A stretch of DNA of 64,000 nt. Origin: Candidatus Gastranaerophilales bacterium (lineage in GTDB: Bacteria > Cyanobacteriota > Vampirovibrionia > Gastranaerophilales > Gastranaerophilaceae). Positions 24,718 to 39,806 of the stretch are shown one piece after another. Both the position numbers and the translations under genes were made by a program. Each line of letters starts with the position of its first letter. Positions within the stretch are counted from its first letter, which is position 1. Below the pieces are notes generated by a model. That model had not been told where the DNA came from. It ran no database searches and saw only the letters and a list, made by a program, of their open reading frames with translations. Where the stretch lies: positions 1 to 64,000 of the forward strand of contig CANRHZ010000005.1 of assembly GCA_947630535.1 (NCBI GenBank), read 5' to 3'.

Positions 24718-25770
24718 TTAATCTCCTAGTTGTTTTTGGATTTCTTTTGCAATTTCATAAGCTAATTTAGGTGGTACAGCATTTCCAACTTGTTTATATT
24801 GGCTTGTTTTAGTTCCGAGGAATTCAAAATTATCAGGAAAAGATTGTAATCTAGCATTTTCACGAACAGTCGGTATTCGATTTTGTTTATAATGAAAATA
24901 GTTTCTGTGCCCTGTATCAACGGTATTTGATGGCAATCTACTGTTCATACGTTCAAAAGCTTTATTATATCGTCTAATATTCCAGTATTCAGGAGGTAAA
25001 TCTTTAATTTTTCCGCCATCCTTAATCATATTTATAATTTTAACAGTTTGTTCAGTATGAATTGTAAAATCATGATTATATAAGGTTTTTGAATCTCCTC
25101 GAATCTCTTTTTGATACGTAGTTTGAGGTTTATTACAATACTTTTGAATAGAAATATGTTCTTCCGTACCATCAAATTGTGGCAGATCAGATATTGCATC
25201 ACTGGAAGAAACAGGATGTTCAGATGTTTGTCCTATTGGAAATTCAAACTTATTATTTTTCATTCCTATAAATAGAACTCTGCACCTGTTTTGAGGAACG
25301 CCATAATCCGCAGCATTAACAATTTTATAATTAACTTTGTATCCAATATTGCCAAAACGATTTATTATATCATTTTTAAACATACCCTTATTTAAAGTAG
25401 TTAAACCTTTTACATTTTCTATTAAGAAAAAATCAGGTTGTATAGTTTCAACAACTCTACAGAATTCTAAATATAAATGGTTTCTTGGATCATTTATATC
25501 TCTAGTTCCAACTGTACTATAACCTTGGCATGGTGGTCCGCCAATAACACCCACAATATTTTGAGATTTTTTTAAATCCTTCAAAAAATCAGATGTTAAA
25601 TTCTTTATATCTTCACACTTACCAACTTTATTCTTATGATTATGATTGTACGTTGTTATAGCATCTTTCCAAAAATCTATAGCCAATGCAATATCAAACC
25701 CTGCTTGTTCAAAGCCAATGCTTAATCCACCACAACCACAAAACAAATCAATAATCTTATTTTTCTTCAT
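24718..25770 (-). CDS. DNA (cytosine-5-)-methyltransferase, second of pair
   Basis: This 350-residue C5 methyltransferase has motif I IDLFCGCGGLSIGFEQAGF, a motif IV nucleophile at Cys81 in GGPPCQGYS, motif VI FLIENVKG, and C-terminal motifs IX-X (RLPSNTVDTG, RENARLQSFPD, QVGNAVPPKLA). It methylates cytosine in the site cut by the linked restriction proteins. It is closely similar in layout to the upstream paralogue, overlaps it by 14 bases and lies 3 bases from the next gene. Two C5 enzymes suit an asymmetric site (as in LlaJI) or a two-component modification (BsuMI). Confidence 0.94.
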   Translation of the reverse strand: MKKNKIIDLFCGCGGLSIGFEQAGFDIALAIDFWKDAITTYNHNHKNKVGKCEDIKNLTSDFLKDLKKSQNIVGVIGGPPCQGYSTVGTRDINDPRNHLYLEFCRVVETIQPDFFLIENVKGLTTLNKGMFKNDIINRFGNIGYKVNYKIVNAADYGVPQNRCRVLFIGMKNNKFEFPIGQTSEHPVSSSDAISDLPQFDGTEEHISIQKYCNKPQTTYQKEIRGDSKTLYNHDFTIHTEQTVKIINMIKDGGKIKDLPPEYWNIRRYNKAFERMNSRLPSNTVDTGHRNYFHYKQNRIPTVRENARLQSFPDNFEFLGTKTSQYKQVGNAVPPKLAYEIAKEIQKQLGD

Positions 25771-26836
25771 CTATAGCCTCCAATATCGCCGTTGCTACTG
25801 CTTTCGCTAACAATGGAGGTACTGCATTTCCAACCTGACGATATTGGGCACTTCTTGTCCCTTGAAAAACAAAATTATCTTTAAAAGATTGTATTCTTGC
25901 AGCTTCTCTTACCGTAGGAATTCTATTATATATAGGGTGGAAATAATTACTATGGGCATTACCCGTATCTATGGTAACTGAAACATCATTTTCCTTTAAT
26001 CTTTTATATGCAGAAGAATGTCTATTATTTCTTTGATTCTTAAATAATTCTTTTGGAATACTTGTCCAATTTTCACCTTGTTTTACATAAGAAATTCTTT
26101 TCTGAACAATTTCGGCAGGATATTTAATTTCATGATTTTTAACAATATTGTCTTTATCCCTTAAATATCTTCTATAGGAAGTGATAGGGTTGCTCTTTAG
26201 AGTATAATTTGTATCTTTAATATTTTTATCAAAAATATAAAGTTCACCTATTGCATCTTCAACAGTTACAATATTTTTTTTGTGCATAATATCAAATGAA
26301 AAATTAAAGCCCTTTGTTATTACAAAAAAGTTTCTTAATCTTCTTTGAGGGACTCCATAATCAGAAGCATCTAAAATTTTATGCGTTACCTTATAGCCTT
26401 TAGATTCAAATATTTCATATATTTTATTTTTTGCATACCCATTATCACGAGTTACAATCCCCGGGACATTTTCAATTACAATAACTTTCGGTTGTGCTGC
26501 ATCAACAAATTTTACAAATTCATAAAATAACTTATTTCTTGGATCTTCACCACTTTGATACCTGTTAGCAGAAGAAAAACCTTGGCAGGGTGGTCCCCCT
26601 ATAATAACATCAACATCCGAGATTTTACCGAAGTAATTTTTTATTTTTTCAAAACCTATATCCAATAAATCACAACATATTCCTTTTGCATCTTTAAAAT
26701 TATAATTAAAAGTGTCTATTGCGGCTTGATTAAAATCAATTCCGCCAATGATTTGGTATCCTGCTTGCTCAAACCCTGAACTTAATCCCCCACATCCACA
26801 AAATAAATCTAATACTTTTAGCCTTTTCTTATTCAT
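25757..26836 (-). CDS. DNA (cytosine-5-)-methyltransferase, first of pair
   Basis: This 359-residue protein is the first gene of the five-gene RM operon. Motif I is VLDLFCGCGGLSSGFEQAGY, the catalytic Cys84 lies in GGPPCQGFSS, motif VI is IVIENVPG, and the target-recognition region (~215-285) differs most from its paralogue. The end carries REAARIQSFKD and YRQVGNAVPPLLA. GGAG lies ahead of the ATG. Being transcribed before the nuclease genes lets host DNA be protected first. Confidence 0.94.
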   Translation of the reverse strand: MNKKRLKVLDLFCGCGGLSSGFEQAGYQIIGGIDFNQAAIDTFNYNFKDAKGICCDLLDIGFEKIKNYFGKISDVDVIIGGPPCQGFSSANRYQSGEDPRNKLFYEFVKFVDAAQPKVIVIENVPGIVTRDNGYAKNKIYEIFESKGYKVTHKILDASDYGVPQRRLRNFFVITKGFNFSFDIMHKKNIVTVEDAIGELYIFDKNIKDTNYTLKSNPITSYRRYLRDKDNIVKNHEIKYPAEIVQKRISYVKQGENWTSIPKELFKNQRNNRHSSAYKRLKENDVSVTIDTGNAHSNYFHPIYNRIPTVREAARIQSFKDNFVFQGTRSAQYRQVGNAVPPLLAKAVATAILEAIDEEK

Positions 26837-32220: not shown

Positions 32221-33177
32221 CTACCTTTTCACGCAGCGAACCTGGCCCAATATAAAGCGACTGTTCTGGAAGCTGAGCCCATCTGATATGTCCTGCATCA
32301 AGGCATAGCCGCCTGCTCCTGAAGTAACGACTGAGCTTGACCAGTAGCCGCCGGAACTTATACCAAGTAAAGAGCGATTAATAAATATTGATGCAAGTTC
32401 ATCAATATCGGGTATCCTTGCATCATCACTCAGTTTGGTGCAAGCAGATGAAGCATCATTTCCGCTTTCACTATAGGATGGAAGCATTGATGTTGAAGCA
32501 TTACTTGGGAATGGGTTAGGTGCAACCACAACACTATCTGTTCTATAAAGAACCGTAATAAACCCTACATCTTTTCCGACTTCATTTGGCCCTTTAAGTC
32601 CATTTAAGTCATATATCATATTAACGCAAGTTTTTGCTTGAACATGATAATTGCTCTCTACTTTAGAACCGCAATTTGGATTATAGAATAGTGCAACGGA
32701 TTCTCCGTTAACCGTTTCAAATGCAGCAGCATTAACATCAGATGATAGCCTATAATCATAATCACTATCATCAGGATATTCGGTAAAATATATATTTAGT
32801 TCTTTTAAGCTTTTTGGAAAAATTAAAGTAGTTCCATCCAATGCTATTATGCTTGATGGAATTCCGCAAGCAGATAAATTATTTGAATTACAGATATTTT
32901 GAACTCTGTAGACTTTGGATAAACCATCTATTATAAAGCTTTCCGCTGAATTTTCTATATCATCTGCACCATACCCTGATACACTATCCATCTCCCCTAT
33001 TGCTTGGCTCATTCTTGCATAAAGTGCCTTACGCTGAGCGTTCCAAGCTTTGTCATTGACATTAACTAATAATGAAGGTAGCGTAATCGCTGCTACGATA
33101 CCTATTATCGTTAGTGTTATCAATACTTCAGCTAAAGTAAACCCGCCTAATCCCTTGGGGGGGGGGGTAAGCTCCAA
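32221..33177 (-). CDS. Type IV prepilin-like protein with lectin-like C-terminus, phase-variable start
   Basis: This protein of about 318 residues has a prepilin leader ending in Gly, then FTLAEVLITLTIIGIVAAITLP, the class III signal and membrane helix cut by PilD-type peptidase. The C-terminus (about 255-318, IPDIDELASIFINRS...GYWSSSVVTSG...ILGQVRCVKR) resembles the Lcl/DUF1566 lectin-like domain, suggesting a surface adhesin or minor pilin. The open frame can start only at a TTG at 33177 without a ribosome site. The ATG at 33190 has a good GGGAG eight bases ahead but is out of frame across an 11-base C-run. With one C fewer the ATG frame would read MVKLFGAYPPPKGLGG and then FTLAE. The present allele looks phase-OFF. 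Confidence 0.8.
   Translation of the reverse strand: MELTPPPKGLGGFTLAEVLITLTIIGIVAAITLPSLLVNVNDKAWNAQRKALYARMSQAIGEMDSVSGYGADDIENSAESFIIDGLSKVYRVQNICNSNNLSACGIPSSIIALDGTTLIFPKSLKELNIYFTEYPDDSDYDYRLSSDVNAAAFETVNGESVALFYNPNCGSKVESNYHVQAKTCVNMIYDLNGLKGPNEVGKDVGFITVLYRTDSVVVAPNPFPSNASTSMLPSYSESGNDASSACTKLSDDARIPDIDELASIFINRSLLGISSGGYWSSSVVTSGAGGYALMQDISDGLSFQNSRFILGQVRCVKR
33157..33167. repeat. Poly-G/C tract of 11 in the prepilin leader
   Basis: Eleven consecutive Gs on the plus strand lie between the best start codon and the processing site of the prepilin. They stand out in AT-rich DNA and are long enough for slipped-strand mispairing. Confidence 0.9.
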
Positions 33178-33305
33178 ACAATTTAACCATAAATTAAACT
33201 CCCATCTATATTTTAGTACTATTTAATTATAACGAACCGTTTTTAATTTTTCAAGTCCTTTTGAACGAAGTTTTTCAAAAGTCTCTTTTTTGATATTTTT
33301 ATTTA

Positions 33306-33353: not shown

Positions 33354-34457
33354 ATGGCTCGAAGTTTGGTTGTGGGTGCCGGTATATCCGGAGCCGTACT
33401 TGCAAATTTAATAGCAAACAATCTTAATGAAAATGTGCTTGTAATAGACAAAAGAAACCATATTGCAGGGAATATTTACGATTATAAAGACCAAAAGACC
33501 CATATAACCGTTCATAAATACGGACCCCATATTTTCCATACAAACAACAAAAAAGTTTTTGATTTTTTGTCCGAATATACAAAATGGCATTACTTTTTTT
33601 TAAAGCCAAAAGCCATTATGGAAGGGAATTTTGCTTCAATTCCTTTTAATTTAACAACGCTTTATGATGTTTTTTCAGATCCAATGGCGCAAAAAATAGA
33701 AGAAAACCTTATAAACACTTTTGGATACGGGAAAAAAGTTCCTATATTAAGACTTAGAGAATATAAGGAATTTGAGTTTATTGCTGATTATATATACGAA
33801 CACATGTTTAAAAACTACACTATAAAGCAGTGGGGTCTTTTGCCCGAGGACATAGATTCTTCCGTTACGGAAAGAGTACCTGTCTATATAAGCCATGATA
33901 ACAGGTATTTTCAGGATAAATATCAGGGAATTCCTCTTGATGGCTACAGCCAAATGATTAAAAACATGCTTAGCCACAAAAATATCGAGGTCAGGCTCGG
34001 GGTGGAATATAAAAACCTAAATGAAAATTTTGACAGAATTTTTTATTGCGGCTCAATAGATGAATTTTTTGACTACAAATTCGGGTATCTGGAGTATAGA
34101 AGTTTAAATTTTGATATCAGGACAATCAATAAAGAATATTATCAGCCAAGTGCCATAGTTAACTACCCTAACAATTACGATTTTACAAGAATAACAGAAC
34201 ACAAATACTTTTTGGATGAAAAATCGGAAAAGACAATAATATCTGTTGAATACCCCGCCGCATTTGAGCCCGATAAAAATGAAAGGTTTTATCCGATATC
34301 AAATCAAAAAAATAATGCTTTGTATGAAAAATATTTAAACGAAGCAAAGAAAGCTAAAAACCTTTATTTTATAGGCAGATTGGGTGCATATAAATACTAC
34401 AATATGGATTTAGCGGTGGAAAAAATATTTGAGTTTTTTGAAAAGGAATTAAAATGA
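33354..34457 (+). CDS. glf: UDP-galactopyranose mutase
   Basis: This 367-residue FAD enzyme converts UDP-galactopyranose to UDP-galactofuranose for surface glycans. The FAD-binding motif VVGAGISGAVLANLIA is at the N-terminus, and the family blocks VHKYGPHIFHTNN, FIADYIYEHMFKNYTIKQWG and GRLGAYKYYNMD are all present. It is the first gene of a run of overlapping genes and overlaps galE by four bases. galE supplies its substrate. Confidence 0.97.
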   Translation: MARSLVVGAGISGAVLANLIANNLNENVLVIDKRNHIAGNIYDYKDQKTHITVHKYGPHIFHTNNKKVFDFLSEYTKWHYFFLKPKAIMEGNFASIPFNLTTLYDVFSDPMAQKIEENLINTFGYGKKVPILRLREYKEFEFIADYIYEHMFKNYTIKQWGLLPEDIDSSVTERVPVYISHDNRYFQDKYQGIPLDGYSQMIKNMLSHKNIEVRLGVEYKNLNENFDRIFYCGSIDEFFDYKFGYLEYRSLNFDIRTINKEYYQPSAIVNYPNNYDFTRITEHKYFLDEKSEKTIISVEYPAAFEPDKNERFYPISNQKNNALYEKYLNEAKKAKNLYFIGRLGAYKYYNMDLAVEKIFEFFEKELK

Positions 34458-35452
34458 TACTGATTACAGGTGGAGCAGGCTATATAGGTAGCCATTGTGC
34501 TATAAATTTAATTGAAAAAAATAAAGAGATTGTCATTTTTGATAATCTTGAACTTGGTCACATTGAAACTGTCGAGACTTTAAAAAAGCTTGGAAAAGTT
34601 GAATTTTATAAAGGTGATTTAAGGAATATAGAAGATATTGAAGGAGTATTTAACAAATATAAAATTGATGCGGTTATTCATTTTGCCGCATACGCCCTTG
34701 TCGGAGAATCGGTTATAAACCCTGCAAAATACTATCGTAACAATACTTTTGGAACTTTAAATCTCCTTGATACAATGGTTAAATTCAATGTTAAAAAAAT
34801 AGTTTTTTCATCAACCTGCGCAACTTATGGCGAACCAAAGTATACTCCAATTGATGAAAACCACCCCCAAAACCCGATAAACCCCTATGGCTCATCAAAA
34901 TTAGCCGTAGAAAAAATAATGAACGATTACGACAGGGCATACGGAATAAAATCAATTAAATTAAGGTATTTTAATGTTGCAGGCGCAGACTCCAAGTCAA
35001 GGATAGGAGAATGGCATAACATTGAAACTCATTTAATTCCAAATATTTTAAAATCCGTTATAAAAAAAGACCAAAAATTTAAAATTTTCGGGGATGATTA
35101 CAATACAAAAGACGGCACATGTATTAGAGATTACGTTAACGTAGAGGATTTGGCACAAGCGCATTTTCTTGCTTTATCTTATCTCGAAAAAGAAAATAAA
35201 TCGGACGTTTTTAACTTAGGTACGCAAGACGGGCAAAGCGTTAAAGAGATATTTGCAATATGTGAAGAAGTTTTAAATCAAAAAATAGAGGTTGAAATTA
35301 CAAAAAAAAGAGAAGGCGACCCTGCCATATTATATGCAGATAGCTCAAAAGCAAGAAACATTTTAAAATGGGTACCCGAAAAAACCATAAAAGACAGTAT
35401 AAAAAAAGCGTGGGAGTGGGAAAGAGTCTTAAAAACTTATGTTGAAAAATGA
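34454..35452 (+). CDS. galE: UDP-glucose 4-epimerase
   Basis: This 332-residue extended SDR interconverts UDP-glucose and UDP-galactose. The NAD motif GGAGYIGSHCA is at 5-15, the catalytic pair is in YGSSKLAVEK (Tyr-x-x-x-Lys), and the GalE marks KLRYFNVAGAD and GTCIRDYVNVEDLAQAH are seen. It overlaps glf by 4 bases and the GT8 gene by 14. With glf it gives the UDP-Gal to UDP-Galf route. Confidence 0.96.
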   Translation: MILITGGAGYIGSHCAINLIEKNKEIVIFDNLELGHIETVETLKKLGKVEFYKGDLRNIEDIEGVFNKYKIDAVIHFAAYALVGESVINPAKYYRNNTFGTLNLLDTMVKFNVKKIVFSSTCATYGEPKYTPIDENHPQNPINPYGSSKLAVEKIMNDYDRAYGIKSIKLRYFNVAGADSKSRIGEWHNIETHLIPNILKSVIKKDQKFKIFGDDYNTKDGTCIRDYVNVEDLAQAHFLALSYLEKENKSDVFNLGTQDGQSVKEIFAICEEVLNQKIEVEITKKREGDPAILYADSSKARNILKWVPEKTIKDSIKKAWEWERVLKTYVEK

Positions 35453-36536
35453 TACAGTCGTAATTTTCGGATGCGATAATAACTATGCAGCGTATTTGGG
35501 GGGGGGGGGAATCAGTTCTCTGATACAAAATTCAACCCCAAATAATAACTATTTAATATATATAATTGAAGATGGTATAAGTGAAAATAATAAGCACAAA
35601 ATTAAATTAATGGAAAAAGAAAATATAAAAATCAATTTTGTGCAAATAAATCAGATTTTAAAAACCGTGGATAAAAAATTGTTTCACTTAAGCGGCCATT
35701 TGACCCTTGCTTCATATTACAGATTTTTTATCCCCAAACTTTTTTTAAACTTTAAAAGAGTAATTTATGCGGATTCGGATATTGTTTTTCTTGATGATGT
35801 TTCAAAGTTATTTAACTGTGATTTAAGGGGAAACTATATAGGAGCAGTTTATGATTTTGAAGTTTTAAGGCAGATATATTTAAAAAAAAGAGAAGCTCTC
35901 TACTATAAACAAACACTAAAACTTATAAATCCAAAAAACTATTTTAATGCCGGACTTTTGGTTATGGATTTAGATTGTTTAAGGGATTTCAACTTTACCG
36001 ATAAATGTATACAAAAATTAAATGAAATAAAAAACCCAAAATTCCATGATCAATGCATTATAAATAGTGTTTTAGAAAATAAGGTTGAATATATTAATCC
36101 TACTTGGAATGTGCAAAACTATATGTTAAGGCACTACGATATTTTGGAAACTATTCCCGATTTTGTTTTTGAGGAGTGTAAAAATATGGTTTTGAATGCT
36201 GACTATAAGGCCATTCATTACACGGGCGGACTTAAACCATGGGATAATCCTTTTATACAAAATTCCAAGTTCTTTTTTGAATATTTAAAATATTCTCCTT
36301 TTTATGATGAAATTATAAATAAAGAGTGCATTAAAAATCCCAAAAAAACGAAAGACAGGTTTTATAAAAACTTTTTAGAGTTAGTATTTTCTGTTAAAAA
36401 ATTGAAAACCCCGCTAAAAACTTATAAAATTATAACATTGTTCGGAATTAAAATTAAAACAACGACCGAAAGGAGAAAATACCCTTGTTTAAAAACAACA
36501 AACTCTTTTATCTCGGACAAGATGTTTACCATGTAA
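35439..36536 (+). CDS. Glycosyltransferase family 8 protein, poly-G contingency gene
   Basis: This 365-residue GT-A enzyme of GT8 (LgtC/GspA-like) has VVIFGCDNNYAAYL at the start, the metal-binding DxD motif YADSDIVFLDD (~108-118), NAGLLVMDLD, and HYTGGLKPW near residue 265. Members add galactose or glucose to LPS or surface glycans. A 12-G tract codes for Gly residues at positions ~21-24, where relatives have a varied LxxSIxSL helix. In this sequence the frame is open (ON). The last ~24 codons overlap the next gene and may be a read-through tail. Confidence 0.9.
   Translation: MLKNDTVVIFGCDNNYAAYLGGGGISSLIQNSTPNNNYLIYIIEDGISENNKHKIKLMEKENIKINFVQINQILKTVDKKLFHLSGHLTLASYYRFFIPKLFLNFKRVIYADSDIVFLDDVSKLFNCDLRGNYIGAVYDFEVLRQIYLKKREALYYKQTLKLINPKNYFNAGLLVMDLDCLRDFNFTDKCIQKLNEIKNPKFHDQCIINSVLENKVEYINPTWNVQNYMLRHYDILETIPDFVFEECKNMVLNADYKAIHYTGGLKPWDNPFIQNSKFFFEYLKYSPFYDEIINKECIKNPKKTKDRFYKNFLELVFSVKKLKTPLKTYKIITLFGIKIKTTTERRKYPCLKTTNSFISDKMFTM
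35498..35509. repeat. Poly-G tract of 12 in the GT8 gene
   Basis: Twelve Gs encode part of LGGGG. Any change not divisible by three would truncate the enzyme after about 25-40 residues. Confidence 0.92.
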
Positions 36537-37537
36537 TATTTAAAATTTTTTTCGTTAAGATTGCCATTAGAAAGAATATCTTGGATTATTTTACAAACAA
36601 TATAAAGGCAATTAGGTCAAGCGGGGTAGAACTAACATTTATTTTATCTTTTGTTGACGAATTAAAGCATTTTGATTTAAAGGAAAAGTACTCTGCACTT
36701 ATAAAAAATCTTGACCCTGAGTCTGTTGATACCGTGAATAAAATAATATCGTTTTGTTTTAAGTTTTATAATAGCGACAAAACAAAATACGAACAAATAT
36801 ATGAAAAAACGGGATTAAAAAAAATAAAGCAAGAGTGTGCCGAATTTCACAGCAGGGTTTTTAAGATAAACAATGAATGCTATGTATATAATAAATACTT
36901 TCTGCCCAAAAAACACTTTGAAGCATGTGTATTTAAAGAAAAGTACGGACTTGAAGAACTTAAAAATAAAGAATACTTTAAAAACAAAGACATAATAGAT
37001 GCAGGCGCTTTTATAGGGGATAGCGCAATTGTTTTATCCGACTATACAAATAAAAAAGTATACTCATTTGAGCCCACAAGCCTAAATTATCAATACATGT
37101 TAAAAACAATAGAGCTAAACAAAAAAGAAAACATAATTCCCGTTAATTTGGGGTTAGGGGATAAAGAAGAAGAAATTGAAATGGGGGTATGCGGTTCAGG
37201 CAGCGGAATATTAACCGTAATAAAGGCTGAAAATACAGAAAAATGTAAAGTAACAACTTTGGATAAATATGTGCAAGAAAATAATCTTGAAGTAGGACTT
37301 ATTAAAACGGACTTAGAAGGCTTTGAACAAAATTTTATAAAAGGCGCAATTAATACAATTAAAAAGTTCTCTCCCACTCTTTTAATCAGTATCTACCATA
37401 CACCAAGCGATTTTTTTGATATAAAACCAATGATTGAATCTTTAAGTTTGGATTATAATTATAGAATAGTAAAACCAAAAGACGGTTTACTCATAGTTGA
37501 AACAATGCTTGTTTGCGAGCCAAAGGAGAATATTTAA
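36485..37537 (+). CDS. FkbM-family methyltransferase
   Basis: This protein of 350 residues starts at TTG (36485) with AGGAG ahead. The C-terminal half carries the FkbM-type AdoMet fold: DIIDAGAFIGDSAIVLSDY (~165-183), VYSFEPTSLNYQYM, and IKTDLEGFEQNFIKGA near 278-293. FkbM enzymes O-methylate sugars or other hydroxyls, so this one may methylate a surface glycan. The N-terminal 120 residues are helical and unassigned. It overlaps the GT8 gene by 52 bases. Confidence 0.85.
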   Translation: MFKNNKLFYLGQDVYHVIFKIFFVKIAIRKNILDYFTNNIKAIRSSGVELTFILSFVDELKHFDLKEKYSALIKNLDPESVDTVNKIISFCFKFYNSDKTKYEQIYEKTGLKKIKQECAEFHSRVFKINNECYVYNKYFLPKKHFEACVFKEKYGLEELKNKEYFKNKDIIDAGAFIGDSAIVLSDYTNKKVYSFEPTSLNYQYMLKTIELNKKENIIPVNLGLGDKEEEIEMGVCGSGSGILTVIKAENTEKCKVTTLDKYVQENNLEVGLIKTDLEGFEQNFIKGAINTIKKFSPTLLISIYHTPSDFFDIKPMIESLSLDYNYRIVKPKDGLLIVETMLVCEPKENI

Positions 37538-37539
37538 AA

Positions 37540-38502
37540 GTGCCGAAAAAAATTCTTGTAACCGGTGGGAGCGGATTTATAGGTTCAAACCTTGTAAGAG
37601 AGTTGTTAAAAGATAAAAACAATGAAATTATATGTATAGATAATAACTATACAGGCTCAATTGATAATATAAAAGAGCTTTTAGACAACAAAAGGTTTAA
37701 ATTTATAGAGCATGACATTATTAATCCCCTAAACATTGATGATAAGATTGATGAGATATATAATCTGGCATGTCCTGCATCTCCCCCTTTTTATCAGGGA
37801 AAAATGGCCATTAATACAACAAAAACATGTGTGTATGGCGCAATTAACATGCTTGAGCTTGCAAGAAAAAATAATGCAAAAATTCTTCAAACCTCTACAA
37901 GCGAGGTATACGGCGAGCCCCTTGTTCACCCCCAAATTGAAACATACAGGGGAAACGTTAATCCCACAGGAATAAGAGCATGCTATGATGAAGGCAAAAG
38001 GTGTGCCGAGAGCTTGTTTTTTGATTACAACCGAATTTACAATGTAAAAATTAAAGTGGTTAGAATTTTTAATACATACGGCCCTTTTATGAACCCAAAT
38101 GACGGCAGAGTGGTATCTAACTTTATATGTCAGGCACTAAGGGGCGAAAATTTAACCGTATATGGTGACGGGACTCAAACACGCTCTTTTTGCTATGTTG
38201 ATGATTTAATTGAAGTTATAATAAAAATGATGAGCTCAAATGATGATTTCATAGGACCCGTGAACATAGGAAACCCGAATGAGTTTACTATAAAGGAGCT
38301 TTCAGAGCTTGTTGTAAATAAAATCAATAAAAACCTGAAAATTATTTATAAACCCCTTCCTTTGGATGATCCAACCCAAAGGAGACCTGATATAGGGCTT
38401 GCAAAAGAAAAATTAAACTGGGAGCCAAAAATACAACTAAGGGAAGGGCTTGATAAAACAATTGATTACTTTGCTAACATAATAAAAAGGTATAAAAAAT
38501 GA
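37540..38502 (+). CDS. UDP-glucuronate decarboxylase (UDP-xylose synthase)
   Basis: The GTG at 37540 is taken as start, since AAAGGAGAA lies about ten bases ahead and VPKKILVTGGSGFIG is the natural N-terminus; this gives 320 residues. It is an extended SDR: Rossmann GGSGFIGSN, catalytic YDEGKR (Tyr-x-x-x-Lys), NTYGPFMNPNDGRVVSNF, and TRSFCYVDD, all typical for UXS. It makes UDP-xylose from UDP-glucuronate, which the next gene's enzyme produces. It overlaps ugd by four bases. Confidence 0.93.
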   Translation: MPKKILVTGGSGFIGSNLVRELLKDKNNEIICIDNNYTGSIDNIKELLDNKRFKFIEHDIINPLNIDDKIDEIYNLACPASPPFYQGKMAINTTKTCVYGAINMLELARKNNAKILQTSTSEVYGEPLVHPQIETYRGNVNPTGIRACYDEGKRCAESLFFDYNRIYNVKIKVVRIFNTYGPFMNPNDGRVVSNFICQALRGENLTVYGDGTQTRSFCYVDDLIEVIIKMMSSNDDFIGPVNIGNPNEFTIKELSELVVNKINKNLKIIYKPLPLDDPTQRRPDIGLAKEKLNWEPKIQLREGLDKTIDYFANIIKRYKK

Positions 38503-39806
38503 AAATTTGTGTTATAGGAACCGGATATGTCGGACTTGTTGTAGGCACATGTCTTGCTGAGATGGGAAATGATGTAATTTGTGTTGATAACAACAAAGAA
38601 AAGCTTGAACTTTTAAATAAAGGGATAATTCCCATATACGAGCCCGGATTAGAGGATTTAATAAAAATAAACGTCAAGGATGAAAGACTTTCTTTTACTT
38701 CTGACATTGATTATGCCGTTAAAAAATCTCTTGTTTGTTTTATAGCGGTTGGAACCCCCCAAAAAGAGGACGGCTCTGCCGATTTAAAATATGTATATGA
38801 GGTTGCAAAGCAAATCGGGCAATCAATTGATAAATATACGGTTATTGTTGATAAATCAACCGTTCCTGTCGGAACCGCCGAGAAAGTAAGTGATATAATA
38901 AAAAAATACGCAAAAAGCGAGTTTGATGTTGTTTCCAATCCTGAATTTTTAAAACAGGGGGCTGCGGTTGATGATTTTCTTAAACCGGATAGGGTAGTTA
39001 TCGGCTCTAATTCAACAAAAGCAACCGAAATTATGCAAGAGCTCTATGCTCCTTTTTTAAGAACGGGAAACCCCGTTATTATTATGGATGTTAAATCTGC
39101 CGAAATGACAAAATATGCGGCAAACTCTTTTCTTGCGGTAAAAATTTCATACGCAAACCAAATTGCAAATATATGCGAAAAAGTGGGGGCGGATGCCGAG
39201 ATGGTAAGAATCGGAATGACATCCGATAAAAGGATTGGCCCTCAGTTTTTATTTCCCGGGCTTGGGTATGGAGGAAGTTGTTTTCCAAAAGACGTTAAGG
39301 CTCTTACAAAAACGGCGCTTGATAACGGGTGCGATTGTTCCATACTGTATGCGGCGGATGAAATAAACAAAAAACAAAGAAAAATCTTTATTGATAAAAT
39401 CGTAACAAGATTTGGCGACAACATAAAGAACATGACTTTTGCCGTTTGGGGGCTTGCATTTAAACCAAAAACAAACGATATGAGAGAAGCCCCGTCCGTT
39501 AATATTATAAACGAGCTTTTAGATAAGGGCGCAAAAATAAATGCGTTTGACCCTAAAGCGTTTGGGGAAGCAAAAAAGTATTTTTCAGATAAAATTACCT
39601 ATTCAAAGTCGGCATACGAAGCGTGTGAGAATGCTGATTGTATGCTACTTTTGACCGAATGGAACGAATTTAGACGCCCTGATTTTGATAAAATAAAAGA
39701 GCTTATGAAATCTCCGATTATCTTTGACGGGAGAAATCAGTATAACCCGCAAAGGTTAAAAGAAAGAGGGTTTGAATACCACTGTATGGGAAAACGCTCT
39801 TTATAG
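38499..39806 (+). CDS. ugd: UDP-glucose 6-dehydrogenase
   Basis: This 435-residue enzyme oxidises UDP-glucose twice to UDP-glucuronate using NAD. The N-terminal Rossmann is GTGYVGLVVGTCLAEMG, the thioester-forming cysteine lies in GYGGSCFPKDV, and the C-terminal domain carries FAVWGLAFKPKTNDMREAPS. It supplies the UXS enzyme upstream. It is the last gene of the operon, and its end overlaps the converging TPR gene by six bases. Confidence 0.97.
   Translation: MKICVIGTGYVGLVVGTCLAEMGNDVICVDNNKEKLELLNKGIIPIYEPGLEDLIKINVKDERLSFTSDIDYAVKKSLVCFIAVGTPQKEDGSADLKYVYEVAKQIGQSIDKYTVIVDKSTVPVGTAEKVSDIIKKYAKSEFDVVSNPEFLKQGAAVDDFLKPDRVVIGSNSTKATEIMQELYAPFLRTGNPVIIMDVKSAEMTKYAANSFLAVKISYANQIANICEKVGADAEMVRIGMTSDKRIGPQFLFPGLGYGGSCFPKDVKALTKTALDNGCDCSILYAADEINKKQRKIFIDKIVTRFGDNIKNMTFAVWGLAFKPKTNDMREAPSVNIINELLDKGAKINAFDPKAFGEAKKYFSDKITYSKSAYEACENADCMLLLTEWNEFRRPDFDKIKELMKSPIIFDGRNQYNPQRLKERGFEYHCMGKRSL

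Follow-up and report, generated by a model that had tools for sequence, protein, structure and literature searches.

RESULTS

A poly-G tract within a GT8 gene of a glycan operon

The DNA analyzed here (the window; 64,000 nucleotides) corresponds to positions 1 to 64,000 of the + strand of contig CANRHZ010000005.1 in assembly GCA_947630535.1 (referred to here as genome G000). The genome belongs to the Gastranaerophilales, which are nonphotosynthetic relatives of cyanobacteria. An operon on the + strand begins with a UDP-galactopyranose mutase gene (glf; 33354 to 34457; PF03275, E 3.3e-73), followed by a UDP-glucose 4-epimerase-like gene (galE; 34454 to 35452; PF01370/PF16363) whose stop codon overlaps the start of a gene for a 365-aa, LgtC/WbbM-like glycosyltransferase of family GT8 (35439 to 36536). 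Directly after the GT8 gene come genes for an FkbM-type methyltransferase (36485 to 37537; PF05050, E 1.7e-12), an NAD-dependent sugar epimerase/dehydratase (UDP-xylose synthase-like; 37513 to 38502; PF16363/PF01370), and a UDP-glucose/GDP-mannose dehydrogenase (ugd-like; 38499 to 39806; PF03721/00984/03720). On the − strand, adjacent to this operon, is a type IV prepilin-like gene (32221 to 33190; PF07963 N_methyl, E 4.6e-5). Elsewhere in the window, positions 66 to 369 at the contig start form a tandem repeat (129-bp unit, 2.4 copies, 99% identical), and an open reading frame (ORF) resembling DNA cytosine-5 methyltransferases, without an obvious long repeat, is present at 25757 to 26836 (−).

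The GT8 gene contains a run of 12 G (35498 to 35509, +), and a run of 11 G (33157 to 33167; 11 C on the coding strand, −) is located 2.3 kb away in the leader of the prepilin gene. No other G/C run in the window exceeds 6 nt. A preliminary description of this DNA had reported just such a pair, i.e., one tract in a glycosyltransferase gene, one in a pilin gene, and no comparable G run in the remainder of the 64 kb. Its statement that the first tract encodes glycines within an open frame also held, with a correction. The tract codons (TTG GGG GGG GGG GGA; L-G-G-G-G, residues 20 to 24) include the third base of a leucine codon, and the last glycine codon is GGA.

We varied the tract length in silico. 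From the main start, the GT8 frame was open (ON) at 9, 12, and 15 G and closed (OFF) at 10, 11, 13, and 14 G, with peptides of 27 aa at 11 G and 35 aa at 13 G. The tract is located early in the gene (codons 20 to 24 of 365), a change of one base in either direction flips translation between ON and OFF, and all of the OFF frames stop upstream of the DxD residues (D112 and D114). An internal ATG (35485 to 35487, +), four codons 5′ of the tract, shares the reading frame of the enzyme body only when the tract has 10 or 13 G (349/350 aa). It has no obvious Shine-Dalgarno (SD) sequence, and its product, which would lack the first strand of the fold, could be a weak, N-terminally truncated alternative at these lengths.

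The enzyme has the features expected of GT8 members, namely, a PF01501 domain (E 9.7e-44), a GT-A fold, a UDP-binding first strand, and a DxD motif in which D112 and D114 are invariant. Phmmer matched it to WbbM (6u4b; 6e-27) and LgtC (1g9r; 3.7e-19), and a Foldseek search with the AlphaFold model (whole-model pLDDT, 81) returned the same two proteins as the nearest solved folds (LgtC, 2e-20). These matches point to a probable galactosyltransferase. In the model, Gly21 to Gly24 are located in helix 1, just past the nucleotide-sugar-binding strand and upstream of DxD, within a block with a pLDDT of 97, with good folding predicted for the ON form at this site.

Opposite the four glycines, which are present both here and in a paralog, the GT8 homologues of related genomes carry three ordinary residues (e.g., AVT), suggesting that the tract represents an insertion that this variable position tolerates. 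The paralog (C43:11035-12051 of G000; locus L286; 42% identity) retains the four glycines encoded as GGGGGAGGGGGA. It is apparently a frozen switch, in which synonymous A's have broken the homopolymer and the peptide has been kept. A 13-G tract is located just upstream of this paralog, where a GT2 gene ends. A search of the genome contigs with the GT8 protein as the query confirmed no relatives.

A prepilin family with poly-C tracts in the leader

The prepilin gene of the window is one of approximately 37 to 40 dispersed paralogs in the genome. Upstream of its ATG (33190 to 33188) are an SD sequence (GGGAG; 33188 to 33203 with the start codon, −) and a putative sigma-70 promoter (TTGAAA - 17 bp - TATAAT; 33226 to 33254, −). 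The ATG is followed by the leader, the poly-C tract, and KGLGGFTLAEVLITLTIIG, with the body frame remaining open for 311 codons past the tract. Given that 10 or 13 C are needed to connect the ATG to this frame and that the tract has 11 C, the gene is OFF from its ATG.

The family shares a plan consisting of SD (GGGAG), ATG, approximately eight codons, poly-C, KGLGGFTLAEVLITLTIIGIVAAITLP, and approximately 300 residues with a variable C-terminal half. The leader tract and KGLGGFTLAEVLITLTIIGIVAAITLP or a close variant of it were detected in 37 copies. The proteins have the class III signal peptide, G/FTLAE cleavage motif, and hydrophobic helix (PF07963) of type IV prepilins. Upstream alignment of 31 copies revealed conserved TTGAAA and TAaAAT hexamers approximately 17 bp apart, and the promoter, SD, and ATG were kept across these copies.

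Of the 19 prepilin genes assembled across the tract, 18 were OFF (i.e., the ATG frame missed the pilin body), and the sole ON gene was C7:60448, with 13 C. Approximately 19 bp of the otherwise conserved 5′ untranslated region has been lost from this copy. Another copy, C18:34681 (10 C), would be ON by analogy; this assignment was rejected, because its leader contains an additional A that puts the frame OFF. Copies on C11, C29, C35, C38, C57, and C61 had no tract or an interrupted one. Near-identical leaders of paralogs carried 10 to 13 C and differed by 1 to 3 C (e.g., 12 C in C10:2258 and 11 C in C10:3347).

Genome-wide census of homopolymeric runs

The census covered nearly the whole genome (1.85 Mb; 72 contigs) and identified 62 G/C runs of 9 nt or more. 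Their lengths were bimodally distributed, with few runs at 8 (3 runs), 9 (4 runs), and 10 nt (4 runs) and 54 at 11 nt or more (18 at 11, 29 at 12, 6 at 13, and 1 at 16 nt; peak, 12 nt). Simulated 2nd- and 5th-order Markov genomes were expected to contain 0.5 to 4 runs of 11 nt or more, which bears out the earlier argument that long G runs are unlikely to arise by chance here. The GT8 tract is well above the chance length under these models and within the unstable length range (8 G or more). Runs of A/T, in a genome with 66% AT, numbered 579 at 8 nt, 31 at 9 nt, 5 at 10 nt, 0 at 11 nt, and 1 at 12 nt. The rebound of G runs at 11 to 13 nt together with the lack of A/T expansion suggests that long G runs are kept, and kept at 11 to 13 nt.

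Two modules accounted for the tracts, namely, the 37 prepilin leaders (over half of the approximately 60 runs) and about 22 single loci, mostly glycan genes. The tracts are concentrated in surface-structure genes, as the preliminary description had anticipated, rather than scattered irrespective of gene function.

Contigs ended exactly at the run for three nonrepeated tracts (p 0.0016). These ends fit mixed tract lengths among reads and also fit sequencing drop-out. We therefore rejected contig ends as proof of read heterogeneity, since repeated flanks confound the prepilin tracts and only the three unique tracts are informative.

Tracts outside the prepilin family

According to Pfam, the nonpilin tracts were mostly associated with glycosyltransferases and other polysaccharide genes. 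The glycan-type targets included GT8, GT2 (several), GT6, GT9, GT10, GT11, and polysialyltransferase-like proteins. Further targets were a CDP-glycerol glycerophosphotransferase with an epimerase, acyltransferase-3, polysaccharide deacetylase, GDSL hydrolase, methyltransferase, and radical-SAM proteins. There were also FtsH-like AAA/M41, ABC1-kinase-like, PPDK_N, and ornithine-cyclodeaminase-like proteins and two targets without families. Six of 21 tract sites touched one of the 21 GT2 genes of the genome (p ~8e-6, assuming 1,750 genes). Ten of the 12 unique tracts located inside one gene were ON, compared with 1 of 19 prepilins (Fisher, 1.5e-5); C24:2614 was left out of this count because its start was ambiguous.

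Four tracts were located at gene junctions, i.e., C16:9374 (epimerase and GT2), C16:1223 (GT9 and GT2), C16:14091 (GT10 FucT and GT2), and C50:3525 (IspD-like and epimerase-glycerophosphotransferase). At C16:9374, C16:14091, and C50:3525, certain tract lengths join both proteins in frame, and at other lengths the first protein stops just 5′ or 3′ of the next start. The tract length at C16:1223 changes only the C terminus of the upstream protein. Several tracts are located 2 to 5 nt 5′ of an ATG (G11-TAATATG and G11-TAATG); at these sites, the G run may also act as a Shine-Dalgarno sequence.

Of 25 unique G tracts, 12 are immediately followed by the triplet TAA, compared with 4% of 5- to 7-nt G runs (p 2.6e-10), with 45 matches in the genome overall. 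It is also common after tracts in four relatives (G063, G022, G012, and G092). Because it is near zero in most relatives, we rejected it as a universal motif and regard it as lineage specific. Candidate causes are a built-in stop, a shared origin of tract and flank, and an insertion preference.

Poly-G tracts and mismatch repair among relatives

The median number of runs of 10 nt or more in 117 genomes of the family was 5 (maximum, 124), and 30 genomes had 20 or more. Another draw of relatives included a genome with 176 (G180), so the counts among relatives ranged from 0 to 176. Genomes of the phylum outside the family had a median of one such run; two of these had more than 20, with many G runs within approximately 100 bp of each other, and these counts look at least partly artefactual. 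Genomes G166, G176, and G007 also contained long G runs clustered within approximately 100 bp, some of them opposed, resembling poly-G sequencing artefacts. Such clusters look like a reason for caution regarding tract counts in metagenome-assembled genomes (MAGs).

Pilin relatives in BRZ_GD_bin71 (approximately 53% identity; over 30 copies) have a plain MKK leader with no tract, and those of Zag_221 and others have G11-12 at different points of the leader. It thus seems that tracts arose on more than one occasion. Two Zag_221 scaffolds (L227 and L263) have NN gaps inside the leader G runs (G11-NN-G12 and G15-NN-C-G11), which suggests assembly trouble at tracts. A MAG labelled "Fusobacterium sp. 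NALB_7963_5" (L225, L233, L235, L237, L262, and L268) carries Gastranaerophilales pilins, some with G11-12 leaders, and is probably mislabelled.

The MutL domain (PF01119) was undetected in nine of nine sampled genomes of the genus of G000 (g1; G000 to G008). It was present in all but two of the other 29 relatives searched; G010 and G012 were also without it. The MutS1 of the genus is unusually divergent, with all five domains present. Across the family, we rejected a tie between tract number and MutS/MutL loss, as there was no positive correlation. The largest tract sets were found in MutL-bearing genera, and most MutL-less sister species carried few tracts. MutL loss is accordingly context rather than cause. 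MutL loss in meningococcus increased slippage of G5-G8 and did not increase switching of G10-G13 (PMC4085013), and it may thus not matter at tract lengths such as those described here.

DISCUSSION

The GT8 tract is very probably a translational phase-variation switch of the slipped-strand type and part of a genome-wide set of poly-G tracts. Slipped-strand replication in vivo would add or remove one G in the 12-G run. With 12 G, as in this assembly (or with 9 or 15), the cell would make the full enzyme of 365 aa. One base away, a peptide of 27 to 35 aa ending before DxD would be produced, enzyme activity would be lost, and the sugar added by GT8 would be missing from the surface glycan until the tract slipped back. 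Phage or host immunity may select among the resulting variants. The same logic would extend to two modules, i.e., approximately 37 to 40 prepilins, each with its own promoter, SD, ATG, and poly-C leader gate and almost all OFF, and about 22 single loci, mostly glycosyltransferase or polysaccharide genes and mostly ON.

The preliminary description had gone further and proposed combinatorial switching of pilus and glycan. Control of a pilin and a glycan enzyme by hypermutable G tracts is strongly supported by the genome-wide enrichment, the frame logic, the gene functions, the frozen paralog, and the length differences among pilin leaders. The pair itself is two of about 60 tracts and its closeness is incidental, with the adjacent pilin OFF at 11 C while GT8 is ON. 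The support covers control by each tract and does not extend to a functional link between GT8 and pili.

Several other explanations were weighed. The G runs could be artefacts of sequencing or assembly (e.g., poly-G tails of two-color Illumina chemistry) or have miscalled lengths, as suggested by the many tracts at contig ends and the suspicious opposed clusters in G007, G166, and G176. We consider this extremely improbable, given that most unique tracts are internal, with defined sequence and coding frames kept on both sides, and that tracts are found on both strands with a sharp peak at 12 nt. Moreover, the C43 paralog encodes the same four glycines with other codons, and independently assembled Gastranaerophilales MAGs also have G11-12 in pilin leaders. 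The tract might instead be stable glycine-rich coding without a switching role, a by-product of codon use (GGG makes up 20% of Gly codons, so short GGG series can arise) or of absent MutL, which could let homopolymers grow. However, the far commoner A/T runs did not expand, runs of 8 to 10 nt are rare and those of 11 to 13 nt common as if length were held, and tracts concentrate in pilin and glycan genes. MutL-less sister species have 0 to 20 tracts, whereas MutL-bearing relatives have over 100, and this explanation is very unlikely.

Rather than switching the enzyme off, the tract could tune it, with 9, 12, or 15 G placing three, four, or five glycines in helix 1, or it could select between two starts. 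All three lengths are indeed open, and translation from the internal ATG would enter the body at 10/13 G. Nevertheless, the commonest event, single-base slippage, falls in OFF frames, and that ATG lacks an SD and would yield a product missing the first strand of the fold, which makes this role improbable. For the prepilins, the copies could be silent cassettes that recombine into one expressed pilin (pilE/pilS style), with incidental tracts. Many dispersed copies with a conserved N terminus and a variable C terminus, only one of the tract-bearing copies being ON, would fit such a system. Silent pilS cassettes, however, lack a promoter and start region, whereas the copies here are full length, with promoter, SD, and ATG in all 31 that were aligned, and several tract-free copies are openly ON. 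We regard silent cassettes as rather unlikely; unlinked paralogs that each have a promoter and a leader repeat correspond to an opa-like repertoire.

Returning to the phase-variation reading, we lean toward the broader view that the poly-G contingency systems of the Gastranaerophilaceae, with tens to approximately 176 tracts per genome, are among the largest known. In a MutL-less genus, they would include dozens of mostly OFF pilin genes, each with its own promoter and a poly-C gate, as an opa-like repertoire, with lineage-specific flanks hinting that tracts were copied or installed together with their flanks. The device is of a known kind, i.e., slipped-strand poly-G phase variation; the set described here is apparently undescribed, and the poly-C-gated pilin repertoire apparently unusual. 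We found no paper joining Gastranaerophilales or Vampirovibrionia with phase variation in a literature library whose incompleteness means that a missing match is no proof of novelty; the lone Melainabacteria match was a flagellin survey.

Most of what is known about poly-G phase variation comes from Neisseria, Campylobacter, Helicobacter, and similar host-adapted bacteria. Its larger-scale occurrence in a gut lineage that is uncultured and related to cyanobacteria points to an independent origin. The family also offers a natural comparison, as its species have anywhere from 0 to about 176 tracts and either have or lack MutL. In these common gut bacteria, pili and surface sugars are predicted to vary from cell to cell, which would bear on phage attack and IgA recognition. 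The reading of metagenomes is affected as well, because assemblies break at tracts and consensus genes resemble pseudogenes.

The prepilin family resembles the opa family of Neisseria, which consists of about 11 loci, each phase variable via CTTCT repeats in the leader. Both have many dispersed paralogs with their own promoters and a repeat in the signal or leader region, and the independent, stochastic ON/OFF switching of opa loci is predicted for the prepilins as well. Unlike Opa, prepilins are not outer membrane proteins, the repeat is poly-C rather than a pentamer, and there are about 37 to 40 loci rather than about 11.

The GT8 gene is most similar to lgtC of Neisseria, which encodes a GT8 alpha-1,4-galactosyltransferase and contains a poly-G tract. 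The two share the family and a long poly-G within the coding region of a glycosyltransferase that builds glycans. They differ in that the present gene belongs to an unrelated lineage and to an operon with glf, galE, an FkbM methyltransferase, and ugd, with its tract at codons 20 to 24 in helix 1. The GT8 tract probably originated independently of that in lgtC. The gonococcal lgtC tract is (G)8-16, and that of pgtA has been frozen by interruption as GGGAGCGGG (PMC5320596), similar to the apparently frozen tract of the C43 paralog. The best solved-structure match was the GT8 domain of Klebsiella WbbM, the D-galactan O-antigen polymerase, and glf is upstream here too. Unlike WbbM, the present GT8 is a single-domain enzyme, and the likeness covers the fold, not the acceptor or linkage. 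As a whole, the tracts resemble the phasomes of Neisseria and Campylobacter, i.e., collections of poly-G tracts distributed over the genome in surface-structure genes. The scale differs, as Neisseria has a mean of 15 to 19 poly-G tracts per genome (PMC5953494), whereas 62 of at least 9 nt were counted in the genome described here and up to 176 of at least 10 nt in its relatives.
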